This document shows, piece after piece, positions 3-3,540 of a stretch of 43,334 nucleotides of DNA. Under the pieces are notes generated by a model, which was not told the origin of the DNA, did no database searches, and was given only the letters and a program-made list of their open reading frames with translations. A program made the translations under genes and the position numbers. The stretch is from a candidate division WWE3 bacterium (GTDB lineage Bacteria; Patescibacteriota; WWE3; UBA101185; UBA10185). The first letter of the stretch is position 1; the number at the start of each line of letters is the position of its first letter. Location: positions 1 through 43,334 of the forward strand of contig JAAZNL010000046.1 of NCBI GenBank assembly GCA_012798315.1. The letters run 5' to 3'.

Positions 3-77
3 GTAAGCCCTTGTACAATTCCCGAGGGTTGGTACGTAAAACGAACGGCATCTAATGTGTTCTATTTGGAGGAGTGA
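3..77 (+). CDS. Possible 3' end of an upstream gene (partial)
   Basis: The frame starting at base 3 is open from the window edge to a TGA at 75-77 and would end in ...FYLEE. It includes a plausible protein-like stretch (IPEGWYVKRTASNV). A second frame is also open and ends with TAA at 53-55, overlapping the next ATG as TAATG. Only one of them can be the real gene end. With 17-24 codons visible, neither can be identified, so this is a note about the edge and not a firm gene. Confidence 0.25.
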   Translation, partial: VSPCTIPEGWYVKRTASNVFYLEE

Positions 78-609
78 TACCATACAAACTGCTGTTTTTA
101 TAAGAGGGTTGCCTTGTACTGGTAAGTCCACAATTGCTAATTTTCTCCAGGAAACAATTAAGTGTACAGTTATTGATCCTGATTTGATTTCAAAAATGGA
201 TTTATGCGATTTTATATTTAAAAACCCTAAGTTAATATTTCTTAGAAATACTAAGCTATTAAGATTTAGATATAACCTTGCTAAAGCAATTTATTCTATT
301 AAATGCGGTCAATCTATTGCTTGGTGCCAAATGTTTAGCTCTGTTGCAGGGTTGGGGTACACAATTAAAACTTTGATAAAAAATTGTGACCCCAAAATTC
401 GTTTAGTGGTTATTAATTTGATTTGTGACCAAGCAATCTTAATTAAGAGGTTAGAAAATAAAACGTGGATTACCAAAGAGAAGCTTTCTCAATTAGCATT
501 TTCCATGGATAATGTCACGGGTTTACCGGAAAATATTCCTATATACACTCTAAACACAAAGGAAAATCTTGAAGTAACCAAAAAAGCAGTACTTCGAATA
601 ATGGGCTAG
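55..609 (+). CDS. P-loop small-molecule/nucleotide kinase-like protein (AAA_33 type)
   Basis: This 184-residue protein has a Walker A loop (GLPCTGKST, about residues 19-27) preceded by a hydrophobic strand, and the RGLP-x-x-GKST arrangement seen in AAA_33/zeta-like kinases. A central block (CQMFSSVAGL) and a late arginine-containing lid (LIKRLENKTWITKEKLSQL region) fit the same group. The substrate is unknown. The ATG at 55 leaves 18 residues before the P-loop, longer than usual. An ATA codon at 82, 9 nt after a GGAGG (68-72), would give the expected short N-terminus. The gene is convergent with the HIT gene and the two stop codons overlap by 4 nt. Kinase assignment is from family pattern; PSTK/Kti12-like or zeta-toxin-like roles are alternatives I cannot separate. 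Confidence 0.7.
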   Translation: MCSIWRSDTIQTAVFIRGLPCTGKSTIANFLQETIKCTVIDPDLISKMDLCDFIFKNPKLIFLRNTKLLRFRYNLAKAIYSIKCGQSIAWCQMFSSVAGLGYTIKTLIKNCDPKIRLVVINLICDQAILIKRLENKTWITKEKLSQLAFSMDNVTGLPENIPIYTLNTKENLEVTKKAVLRIMG

Positions 610-1049
610 GAGTTACGAAGCTCCACCGCCAGAGTCTCCAGCTCTTGTGCTTCGGCTTTGGGTCCTAACTTTGTTATTAGATATCCAGGGTATTTTTCAA
701 AGTATACTGTGCTTGATACTTCGTGTTGACTGGGCGTATATCCGATGAGTGGATACAATTTAAAATGAAGATGATCTACTCCCACACCTTCTACAACTAT
801 ACCTACCTTTTCTGTGCCAAAATACTTTTTTAATTTGTTTATTGGATTTTTTAGGGCGGTTGCTGCGTAGTTTAACGTACCATCACTGACTGATGAATAA
901 TCTGAGGGTTCGTGTTTTTTTGGAATAACTAACGAGGCGCCTTTTATATTCGGGTTTATATCTAAAATCGCGATAAAATTATCATCTTCCCACCACTTTG
1001 CGGATGGAATCTCGCCTGACGCTATCATGCAAAATATACATTGATTCAT
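606..1049 (-). CDS. HIT-family (histidine triad) nucleotide-binding protein
   Basis: The 147-residue protein begins with the CxFC pair typical of HIT proteins (C4, C7), continues with the fold signature ILDINPNIKGASLVIPKKH, and carries the active-site segment DHLHFKLYP. H93 and H95 are present, and H95 is the expected nucleophile, but the third triad position is lysine (K97). HIT enzymes hydrolyse or transfer nucleotidyl groups on small nucleotides; the exact substrate cannot be read. The gene has its own promoter, TATATT ending 6 nt before the ATG. It lies downstream of the methyltransferase gene on the same strand and overlaps the kinase gene stop on the other strand. Confidence 0.9.
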   Translation of the reverse strand: MNQCIFCMIASGEIPSAKWWEDDNFIAILDINPNIKGASLVIPKKHEPSDYSSVSDGTLNYAATALKNPINKLKKYFGTEKVGIVVEGVGVDHLHFKLYPLIGYTPSQHEVSSTVYFEKYPGYLITKLGPKAEAQELETLAVELRNS

Positions 1050-1061
1050 AAACTTAATATA
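1050..1061 (-). promoter_or_regulatory. -10 element for the HIT gene, leaderless spacing
   Basis: TATATT at 1061-1056 is followed by 6 nt and the ATG at 1049, so transcription should begin at or next to the start codon. No convincing -35 was assigned. Confidence 0.5.
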
Positions 1062-1080
1062 GGGAGGTATTTACCTTATG

Positions 1081-1764
1081 TCAAACAAGCTTTTTAAAAA
1101 CGAGATAAGTATTTTCTTTGTCGGCGTCAAATTGATCAATAAGACTGAATCTTGCACGTTCAAAATGCTTTATAAGATTTTCAATTTCTGTTCTATCGTA
1201 TAAGTGGCAAAAGCGGAGATTTACTCCGGTTCCGCCCCAGTCGAGTAAAAAATCACCTTTTTCAAGCGAAATACCTAATTCCCGTGATTTTATATTAAAT
1301 GTTTTTTCTTTTTGCGGATTAAATTTCCAAATTGTAATAATTACTAAACCTTGTTTGTTAACAACAGCAGAAATGTTTTTTATTGTCTTATAAAGTGCTT
1401 TTTGATTTGGAATATGATGTACCAAACCAAACGCACACACAACGTCGTAATTTCTAGGCAGCTTGTTTTGTATTACATCAAATGTGTAAAAATTTGCCTG
1501 GGCATGCTCCTTTTTGGCCAAATTAATTAATTCGGCGCTCGTGTCATAACCAGTGTATGCACAGTTTATGTTGTTATTTAGCAAAAAAGTTAAAAAGCGC
1601 CCGTCTCCGCAGCCTATATCTGCAATAAGACAGCTGGCTTTAATGTATTTTAATAGCAAGGTCCATCCTGCCCAGGGTTTTACCCTAGATCGCGCAAATT
1701 GCCCTGCCAGGGTATTATAAAAATGTACGTTTAAATCTATGACCTTTTGTGTTTCTAGAGCCAT
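1081..1764 (-). CDS. Trm9/ALKBH8-like SAM-dependent tRNA methyltransferase
   Basis: This 227-residue class I methyltransferase has motif I as ADIGCGDGRFL (residues 48-58), an acidic end of strand 2 (GYDTS), and a VHHIP motif at 115-119 followed by IITIW. The N-terminal pattern, FYNTLAGQFARSRVKPW before motif I, and the C-terminal pattern, RFCHLYDRTEIENL then an acidic/Asn segment and a final VFKK strand, match what I recall of yeast Trm9 and the methyltransferase domain of human ALKBH8. Those enzymes methylate carboxymethyl-uridine at tRNA position 34. The gene diverges from the Elp3 gene across 27 bp, and Elp3 is the enzyme that makes the Trm9 substrate in eukaryotes. A general type-11 methyltransferase with another small-molecule or tRNA substrate is the alternative. 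Confidence 0.75.
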   Translation of the reverse strand: MALETQKVIDLNVHFYNTLAGQFARSRVKPWAGWTLLLKYIKASCLIADIGCGDGRFLTFLLNNNINCAYTGYDTSAELINLAKKEHAQANFYTFDVIQNKLPRNYDVVCAFGLVHHIPNQKALYKTIKNISAVVNKQGLVIITIWKFNPQKEKTFNIKSRELGISLEKGDFLLDWGGTGVNLRFCHLYDRTEIENLIKHFERARFSLIDQFDADKENTYLVFKKLV

Positions 1765-1793
1765 TTTTATTATGTTGCGTTATAGAATATAAT
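1765..1793. promoter_or_regulatory. Compact divergent promoter between the Trm9-like and Elp3 genes
   Basis: Only 27 bp separate the two start codons. On the plus strand TATAGA (1781-1786) and a perfect TATAAT (1788-1793) lie just before the ATG codons at 1792 and 1801 respectively. On the minus strand CATAAT (1774-1769) lies 4 nt before the methyltransferase ATG. The promoters must physically overlap, so the two genes are probably co-controlled. Confidence 0.5.
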
Positions 1794-3540
1794 GCCTAAA
1801 ATGAAATATTCTGATAAGGAACTAAATTATTACGTCGATATTATCACAAAAATCGCTAAATCAGGTGCTGACAACCGTGATGCTGTAAAGTCGGTTTTAA
1901 ACAGTACTCCTTTGACGGGAGGAAAAAGTTTATCGAAAGCAAATTTGCTGGAAATCTATCAGGACCTTAAAAAAATGGGGTTAATATCGTTACGATTGGA
2001 AGAAGAAAAAACTTTATTAAACGGTCTGAAGAAAAAGTTTATTCGTTCTCTATCCGGAGTAACTACAGTAACCGTTCTTACTATGCCCTACCCTTGTCCC
2101 GGAAAATGTATTTTTTGTCCAAATGATATTAGAATGCCAAAAAGTTATATTGCCAGCGAGCCAGGCGCGCAACGGGCTTTAGCAAATAAATTTGATCCTT
2201 ATCTGCAAACATACAACAGACTTGTTGCGTTAAGCAAGAACGGGCACCCCGTAGACAAAATTGAGATGATTGTCTTGGGCGGCACATGGACTTTTTACCC
2301 TGAGAATTATCGTCGATGGTTCATATTAAGATGTTTTCAAGCTTTAAATGATTTTGATGGCAGAAACGGCAACGAAAGTTTAAGTCCGGCCCAGGTTGCG
2401 CTACCTATTGATTTAGCTACGGCGGCGGAATATGGCAAGAACAAGGAACATTCCTCATATAATCACGTTGTGGCCAAAAATATTACTCTGCCCGACGTTG
2501 ATTGCACGTGGGACGATCTTGATAAAGCCTTTGTTGATAATGAACAGGCATACGCCAGATGTGTCGGACTTTCATTGGAAACGCGTCCTGACGAAATAAA
2601 CGAAAACACAGTGATTGAATTGCGAAAGTTAGGGGCCACCAAAATTCAAATGGGCGTGCAGGCATTAGATGACGTAATTTTATCTCTAAATAAACGAGGC
2701 CACACTGTTGCTGTTATCGCTAATGCGTTTAAATTGCTGCGTTTGGCGGGATTTAAAATCCAGGTACATTGGATGCCTAATCTGTACGGATCAAACCCTC
2801 AAAAAGATTTAGAAATGTTTTTTGAACTGTTTAGCAACGTAAATTTCAAACCTGACGAGCTAAAAATATACCCTTGTTCCTTGATTCCGGGGACAGAGCT
2901 TGAGCAAATTTACGAAAACAAGAAATGGGCACCGTACGATGAAAAAATAATGCTGGGCCTAATCGTCGATTTTATTAAAAATACTCCCCGCTATTGCAGA
3001 ATAACCCGTGTTATAAGAGATATTCCGTCAAATGAAATTGCAGCTGGTAACGGGAAAACGAATTTACGTCAGGACGCAGAATTAATTTTAGAAAAGGAAG
3101 GTACTAAAGTTGTAGAAATAAGGTCCCGCGAAATCAGAGAAAAAGCTGTCGATTTAGACTCTTTGGTACTTAAGGAAACGTTTTACTCTACGAGTATTTC
3201 AGAAGAATGCTTTTTGGAATTTGTCACACTAGATGATAAACTGGCTGGATTTTTGAGGCTTTCACTTCCTTCAGAATCGCCTACAATTAGTGAATTATCT
3301 TCATCGGCGGTAATTAGGGAGATTCATGTATATGGCCAAAGTCTCTCGCTCGGTACTAATTCTGCCGGTAAAGCACAACACAGCGGCCTGGGAAAAAGGT
3401 TAATCCAAAGAGCTGAGGAAATCTGTCTACTAAAGGGTTATTCAAAACTATCGGTAATTTCTGCAATAGGAACGCGGGAATATTACAGAAAACGCGGTTT
3501 TAGAGACGGACAATTGTATCAGTACAAGTTTTTGTCCTGA
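1792..3540 (+). CDS. elp3: Elp3-family tRNA uridine-34 modification enzyme (radical SAM + GNAT)
   Basis: The 582-residue protein carries the radical SAM cluster motif C102-x3-C106-x2-C109 in PCPGKCIFCPND, followed by the Elp3 signatures SYIASEPGAQRAL and LGGTWTFYP. The C-terminal third (about 440-582) is a GNAT domain with the acetyl-CoA loop QHSGLGKRL and the Elp3-specific stretch VISAIGTREYYRKRGF. In archaea and eukaryotes Elp3 installs carboxymethyl at C5 of wobble uridine in tRNA using acetyl-CoA and SAM. Both catalytic modules look intact. The ATG at 1801 is an equally good start, because a perfect TATAAT at 1788-1793 overlaps the first ATG and would give a transcript beginning near 1801. 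The gene ends 4 bp from the convergent holin-like gene. Confidence 0.93.
   Translation: MPKMKYSDKELNYYVDIITKIAKSGADNRDAVKSVLNSTPLTGGKSLSKANLLEIYQDLKKMGLISLRLEEEKTLLNGLKKKFIRSLSGVTTVTVLTMPYPCPGKCIFCPNDIRMPKSYIASEPGAQRALANKFDPYLQTYNRLVALSKNGHPVDKIEMIVLGGTWTFYPENYRRWFILRCFQALNDFDGRNGNESLSPAQVALPIDLATAAEYGKNKEHSSYNHVVAKNITLPDVDCTWDDLDKAFVDNEQAYARCVGLSLETRPDEINENTVIELRKLGATKIQMGVQALDDVILSLNKRGHTVAVIANAFKLLRLAGFKIQVHWMPNLYGSNPQKDLEMFFELFSNVNFKPDELKIYPCSLIPGTELEQIYENKKWAPYDEKIMLGLIVDFIKNTPRYCRITRVIRDIPSNEIAAGNGKTNLRQDAELILEKEGTKVVEIRSREIREKAVDLDSLVLKETFYSTSISEECFLEFVTLDDKLAGFLRLSLPSESPTISELSSSAVIREIHVYGQSLSLGTNSAGKAQHSGLGKRLIQRAEEICLLKGYSKLSVISAIGTREYYRKRGFRDGQLYQYKFLS

Follow-up and report, generated by a model that had tools for sequence, protein, structure and literature searches.

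A divergent Elp3 and Trm9-like methyltransferase gene pair as a likely minimal mcm5U34 pathway in bacteria

The window analysed in this work is the whole stretch of 43,334 nucleotides from a candidate division WWE3 bacterium, and it is contig C9 of a 0.9 Mb genome with a completeness of 98.6%. It carries an Elp3 gene and a Trm9-like methyltransferase gene that point away from each other across a very short gap (Table 1), and another genome of the same family (G091) also carries the pair. The original prediction, made from the sequence alone, had given these open reading frames and their divergent layout with 27 bp in between, and both have held. It had further taken the gap as a shared promoter implying co-control of the two enzymes. 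The gap is confirmed, but the promoter was an inference for which we find no signal above chance: the only promoter-like match spanning the gap is a single weak site on the strand of the methyltransferase (9/12), and the 2 sites in the region, as candidates for a bidirectional promoter, do not exceed the number in shuffled sequence (mean 1.2, sd 1.5). A shared promoter or co-regulation of the two genes is thus inferred from the layout alone and is unproven.

Of the neighbouring genes, the HIT-domain gene has a homologue at the same place in four loci of the same family (L133, L140, L142 and L143). The kinase-like gene was considered because KTI12 regulates Elongator, and it was dropped as a pathway member since no homologue lies near Elp3 in related loci.

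Table 1. Features of the Elp3/methyltransferase locus in the window, and the corresponding genes of the Dehalococcoides locus (L286).
Feature	Position	Strand	Remarks
P-loop kinase-like protein	55-609	+	KTI12 match E 0.0036, under cut-off
HIT-domain protein, downstream of methyltransferase	606..1049	-	PF01230; pathway role not claimed
Trm9-like SAM-dependent methyltransferase	1081..1764	-	227 aa; proposed cm5U34 carboxyl-methyltransferase
N218 (yeast Trm9 N271)	1111..1113	-	at least 90% conserved in profile A1
RFCHLY, with R184 (yeast R241)	1198..1215	-	R184 at least 90% conserved
W146, family fingerprint	1327..1329	-	T-x-W-N in relatives, YVWA in Trm9
H116-H117 in VHHIP (yeast Trm9 H115 region)	1414..1419	-	H117 invariant, H116 at least 90%
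R27 (yeast Trm9 R29), start of RxKPW element	1684..1686	-	invariant in 43 Elp3-linked sequences
Gap separating the divergent start codons	1765..1791		27 bp; basis: sequence
Elp3, radical SAM and GNAT enzyme	1792..3540	+	582 aa; proposed cm5U34 synthase
CPGKCIFC, radical SAM [4Fe-4S] cluster motif (C102/C106/C109)	2095..2118	+	invariant in 99 homologues
E263 (archaeal Elp3 E207), active-site/tunnel residue	2578..2580	+	invariant in 99; role from PMC13315578
K358-I-Y360 (archaeal K302/Y304), acetate-positioning	2863..2871	+	97/97 rows with letters; PMC13315578
QHSGLG (QHxGxG), acetyl-CoA binding loop of GNAT domain	3376..3393	+	Q, H and both G in 96/96 rows with letters
L286, Trm9-like methyltransferase	789-1463	-	divergent from Elp3, 43 bp away
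L286, Elp3	1507-2886	+	near-identical to D. mccartyi Elp3

The Elp3 gene encodes a complete enzyme with its catalytic residues intact. The protein matches TIGR01211 over the full length with 469.5 bits (cut-off 350), and its PDB matches are exclusively Elp3 structures, with E values down to 9e-95. We scored residue conservation in 99 aligned bacterial homologues, where the radical SAM cysteines and the GNAT loop, both predicted to be intact, indeed are. In archaeal Elp3, E207, K302 and Y304 are essential or important in cm5U formation (PMC13315578); their counterparts, assigned by motif matching, are all present in the window protein. That this Elp3 catalyses the formation of cm5U34 is inferred.

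The window Elp3 also has an insertion of roughly 50 residues (about residues 187-242, positions 2350-2517) relative to the archaeal and Dehalococcoides enzymes. It is of similar length in genomes of the same family and the same class, and we assign no role to it. In genome G046, the Elp3 gene (L146:5914-8091, plus strand) contains an inserted DUF559 domain (PF04480, E 3e-30), which sits in the loop that joins both radical SAM half-domains; in other genomes this loop ranges from 11 to about 100 residues.

For the methyltransferase, the best PDB match in a phmmer search is 5cm2_Z, the Trm9 of Y. lipolytica (E 2.1e-9), though the single sequence is only moderately close to it (41 bits). With a family profile (A1) built from 43 Elp3-linked methyltransferase sequences of Patescibacteria, the match to 5cm2_Z rises to 120 bits, while the next entry obtains 85 bits. 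That is, among solved structures it is Trm9, and not a general type-11 enzyme, that comes nearest by sequence, and the comparison of Trm9/ALKBH8 with general type-11 methyltransferases that the original prediction had suggested came out for Trm9 on PDB sequence matches. The Pfam and NCBIfam libraries return only general or unrelated models of class I methyltransferase families, and none of their matches passes an equivalog cut-off. On its own, the Dehalococcoides methyltransferase gives slightly better matches to several other methyltransferases than to Trm9. Fold comparison was tried as a test of Trm9 membership and is uninformative: with an AF2 model of high quality (pLDDT 95), Foldseek places 5cm2_Z at rank 2 among many class I methyltransferases, and it cannot separate a Trm9-like enzyme because all of them match. 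In the tree, the rows nearest Trm9 are Elp3-linked sequences, but the support is weak and yeast Trm9 lies on a long branch; the AU test does not reject a grouping of Trm9 with paralogous methyltransferases (p 0.945). The position of Trm9 relative to the Elp3-linked family is therefore unresolved.

We found all of the motifs in which a Trm9/ALKBH8 pattern had been seen, namely FYNTLAGQFARSRVKPW before motif I, motif I itself (DIGCGDGR), VHHIP with ITIWKF, and RFCHLY (the predicted RFxHLY element). In yeast Trm9, the mutations R29A, H115A, R241A, Y243A and N271A lead to a loss of tRNA affinity and activity (PMC5372719). Four of these five residues are kept in the window protein, as R27 (which aligns with an arginine of 5cm2_Z), H117, R184 and N218. 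The fifth, Y243, whose equivalent was set by the alignment as R241 plus two, is a cysteine here and varies between Y, C and V across the family, so that this one Trm9 criterion is not met. In addition, W146 is a tryptophan in all resolved Elp3-linked rows and in 0/16 of the paralogous outgroup methyltransferases.

We then consider how often the two genes go together. Among 192 Patescibacteria genomes, Elp3 is found in 69 (67 over the cut-off plus 2 fragments), and 49 genomes are positive for the Trm9-like profile, which was called at 140 bits or more (the next-best match has 111 bits). Both genes occur in 48 genomes, Elp3 alone in 21, the Trm9-like gene alone in 1, and neither in 122 (Fisher p=2e-27); that is, 48/49 genomes with the Trm9-like profile also carry Elp3. 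The methyltransferase lies within the examined stretch at 43/69 Elp3 loci of Patescibacteria and is divergent in 43/43 of them. The corresponding figures are 27/30 and 27/27 for a Chloroflexota sample of 30 loci drawn for Elp3, and 58 of the 60 loci having both genes are divergent in a multi-phylum contig set of named genomes. Overall, the pairing is divergent in 128/130 loci from several phyla. The named-genome scan detects the Trm9-like gene in Chloroflexota, Myxococcota/Deltaproteobacteria, Verrucomicrobia, Acidobacteriota and many Patescibacteria. Furthermore, the distance matrices of Elp3 and the methyltransferase correlate with r=0.86 (permutation maximum 0.12), to which shared species history contributes. 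The survey of co-occurrence in Patescibacteria that was suggested with the original prediction supports it, and the random gene neighbourhoods that would have spoken against it are not what we see. The conserved divergent pairing and the co-occurrence are shown by these counts, while the p-values here and below are nominal, because the genomes share ancestry and not all of them are complete.

On the other hand, 21 of the 69 Elp3-bearing Patescibacteria have no match to the Trm9-like profile that reaches 140 bits in any part of their genomes (e.g., family f23). It follows that Elp3 can act without the methyltransferase; in these organisms cm5U is possibly the end product, or a different enzyme does the tailoring.

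Bacterial synthesis of xm5U34 is usually taught as the task of MnmE/MnmG, with Elp3 as a rarity of Dehalococcoides. In the genome of the window, neither MnmE nor MnmG is found over the cut-off, and the two are rare in the phylum (MnmG 5/192, MnmE 4/192, none of them together with an over-cut-off Elp3), so the survey of these genes also favours the prediction. For MnmE, only over-cut-off matches were counted, because most matches are partial, cover no more than the central part of the profile and read as other GTPases; as MnmE, the partial matches were rejected. Within Patescibacteria alone, MnmG is too rare for the exclusion between it and Elp3 to reach significance (0/69 vs 5/123, p=0.16), and it is the Chloroflexota test that carries the point. 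In 201 Chloroflexota genomes, Elp3 occurs in 38 and MnmG in 83 (including four split or partial genes), and the two never occur together (0/38 vs 83/163, p=9e-11). MnmG over the cut-off is likewise seen in 0/45 other genomes having the Trm9-like gene. The exclusion of MnmG is thus shown.

The 2-thiolation enzyme MnmA is present in 159/192 Patescibacteria, including the genome of the window. In this genome we found the tRNAs Lys-UUU, Gln-UUG, Glu-UUC, Arg-UCU and Gly-UCC, and no CUG partner was found for Gln-UUG. The same genome has, outside the window, a tRNA-Ile with the anticodon UAU (G000:C62:66-138), and only two CAU tRNAs are among the 43 tRNAs found. It is possible that AUA is decoded by this UAU instead of a lysidine-modified CAU, and that its U34 is another Elp3 target.

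Eukaryotic Trm9 requires Trm112. A search for Trm112 (PF03966), a zinc protein whose survey had also been suggested, detected none in the genome of the window or its family and only 6/192 over the cut-off in the phylum; the sensitivity is limited as the family has just 40 residues. We infer that the Trm9-like enzyme works without Trm112.

In the pathway that we propose, Elp3 would act alone, without Elp1/2/4/5/6, coupling acetyl-CoA hydrolysis and radical SAM chemistry to put a carboxymethyl group on C5 of U34, giving cm5U34. The Trm9-like enzyme would then use SAM to methylate the carboxylate of cm5U34, yielding the ester mcm5U34, and thiolation by MnmA would lead to mcm5s2U34 in the Lys, Gln and Glu tRNAs. 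The pair would stand in place of the usual bacterial MnmE/MnmG route. We consider it likely that the divergent pair is such a minimal bacterial mcm5U34 pathway replacing MnmEG, with the nucleoside product, the methyltransferase reaction and the independence from the other Elongator subunits all being inferred in the absence of biochemical data. The combined cm5U/mcm5U34 pathway of the original prediction is thus well supported as a hypothesis, and it reaches far beyond this genome. A bolder reading concerns several lineages of bacteria: many Patescibacteria, Dehalococcoidia and Anaerolineae-like Chloroflexota, some Myxococcota, Acidobacteriota and others. In these, mcm5(s2)U34, which is regarded as eukaryotic and in part archaeal, would be the standard form of xm5U34, and Elp3 and Trm9 would make it as a module of just two proteins, with neither Elongator partners nor Trm112 and in mutual exclusion with MnmE/MnmG. 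Taking all of these parts jointly, the balance tips only slightly in its favour.

The most serious alternative is that Elp3 makes cm5U34 while the methyltransferase yields an end product other than mcm5U, such as a further modified cm5U, or acts elsewhere, for example on another anticodon-loop base. The moderate similarity to Trm9, the non-conserved Y243 position, the absence of Trm112 and the unresolved tree placement all speak for it. Against it, the conserved residues are those that position cm5U34 in Trm9, W146 sets the linked family apart from its paralogues, the genes of Elp3 and Trm9 cluster in Sulfolobus too (PMC2584109), and the tRNA of Haloferax is reported to contain mcm5U34 (cited in PMC7663514). 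We hold this explanation to be unlikely.

Less likely still is that Elp3 here is not a tRNA U34 enzyme at all, but for instance a protein acetyltransferase, with the methyltransferase serving that role. The one support is that the tested bacterial enzyme, DmcElp3, has a very weak tRNA-triggered activity (PMC7663514). Yet all the radical SAM and tunnel residues required for cm5U formation are retained, it is tRNA, and not peptides, that triggers the hydrolysis of acetyl-CoA by Elp3 (PMC6367351), and the exclusion of MnmG points to U34. As for a generic class I methyltransferase that stands beside Elp3 by chance or neighbourhood inertia without a functional link, the lack of anything but general or unrelated Pfam/NCBIfam models, with no match over an equivalog cut-off, would fit. 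Such a neighbourhood is ruled out by the orientation and co-occurrence counts (128/130 divergent, p=2e-27), with which, as with the residue conservation, chance is incompatible, and the explanation is practically excluded.

The preferred reading, an Elp3/Trm9-like route to mcm5U34, can be compared with the known systems. The eukaryotic pathway, i.e., Elongator (Elp1-6) followed by Trm9-Trm112 or ALKBH8-TRMT112, shares the catalytic subunit Elp3 with intact active sites, the counterparts of R29/H115/R241/N271 in the Trm9-like enzyme, and the usual target tRNAs. In contrast to it, the bacterial pair has no detected Trm112 and consists of two genes at one divergent locus, and thiolation is by the bacterial MnmA where eukaryotes use Ncs6/Urm1. 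Elongator subunits other than Elp3 are not expected in bacteria. In archaea, mcm5s2U-like nucleosides have been proposed from Elp3 and Trm9 homologues, which are clustered in Sulfolobus (Grosjean and others, 2008, PMC2584109). There, too, Elp3 lacks the other subunits and has a Trm9 homologue, with the two clustered in S. solfataricus (PMC2584109), and some archaea have Trm112 or Trm112-fused Trm9 candidates (PMC5372719); what differs here is the bacterial host, the head-to-head genes, the replacement of MnmE/MnmG and the thiolation by MnmA. A pathway of Elp3 and Trm9 in archaea had already been put forward in 2008, so ours is a bacterial variant of a known pathway. MnmE/MnmG with MnmC, MnmL or MnmM also places a methylene substituent at C5 of U34 in the same tRNAs, but with unrelated first-step enzymes and an amine side chain (cmnm5/mnm5). 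We found no paper on a bacterial Elp3-Trm9 pairing in the literature searched, whose coverage is partial.

A review in 2020 placed Elp3 in one bacterial clade, Dehalococcoides, without direct evidence on the U34 nucleosides (PMC7663514). Over 317 aa, the Elp3 of locus L286, which belongs to the Chloroflexota sample, shows 98.7% identity with the D. mccartyi enzyme of known crystal structure (PDB 5l7j). The latter is, like the window Elp3, a stand-alone bacterial Elp3, with a shorter N-terminus, and its near-identical gene has the same divergent methyltransferase partner (Table 1), of which we found no mention in the literature consulted on that enzyme.

Dehalococcoides is hence a cultured genus carrying the pair, and its methyltransferase may be the partner of DmcElp3, an enzyme with known structure but weak activity. 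Our counts indicate a second bacterial xm5U34 system in about a third of the sampled Patescibacteria and a fifth of the sampled Chloroflexota. The pair would explain how split codon boxes are read in genomes without MnmEG, and it predicts the nucleoside; it offers a minimal model for Elongator plus Trm9, and it bears on the question of whether the pathway predates eukaryotes. If the reading is true, a tRNA chemistry thought to be of eukaryotic and archaeal type would be a normal bacterial option, encoded by two back-to-back genes and needing no large complex.
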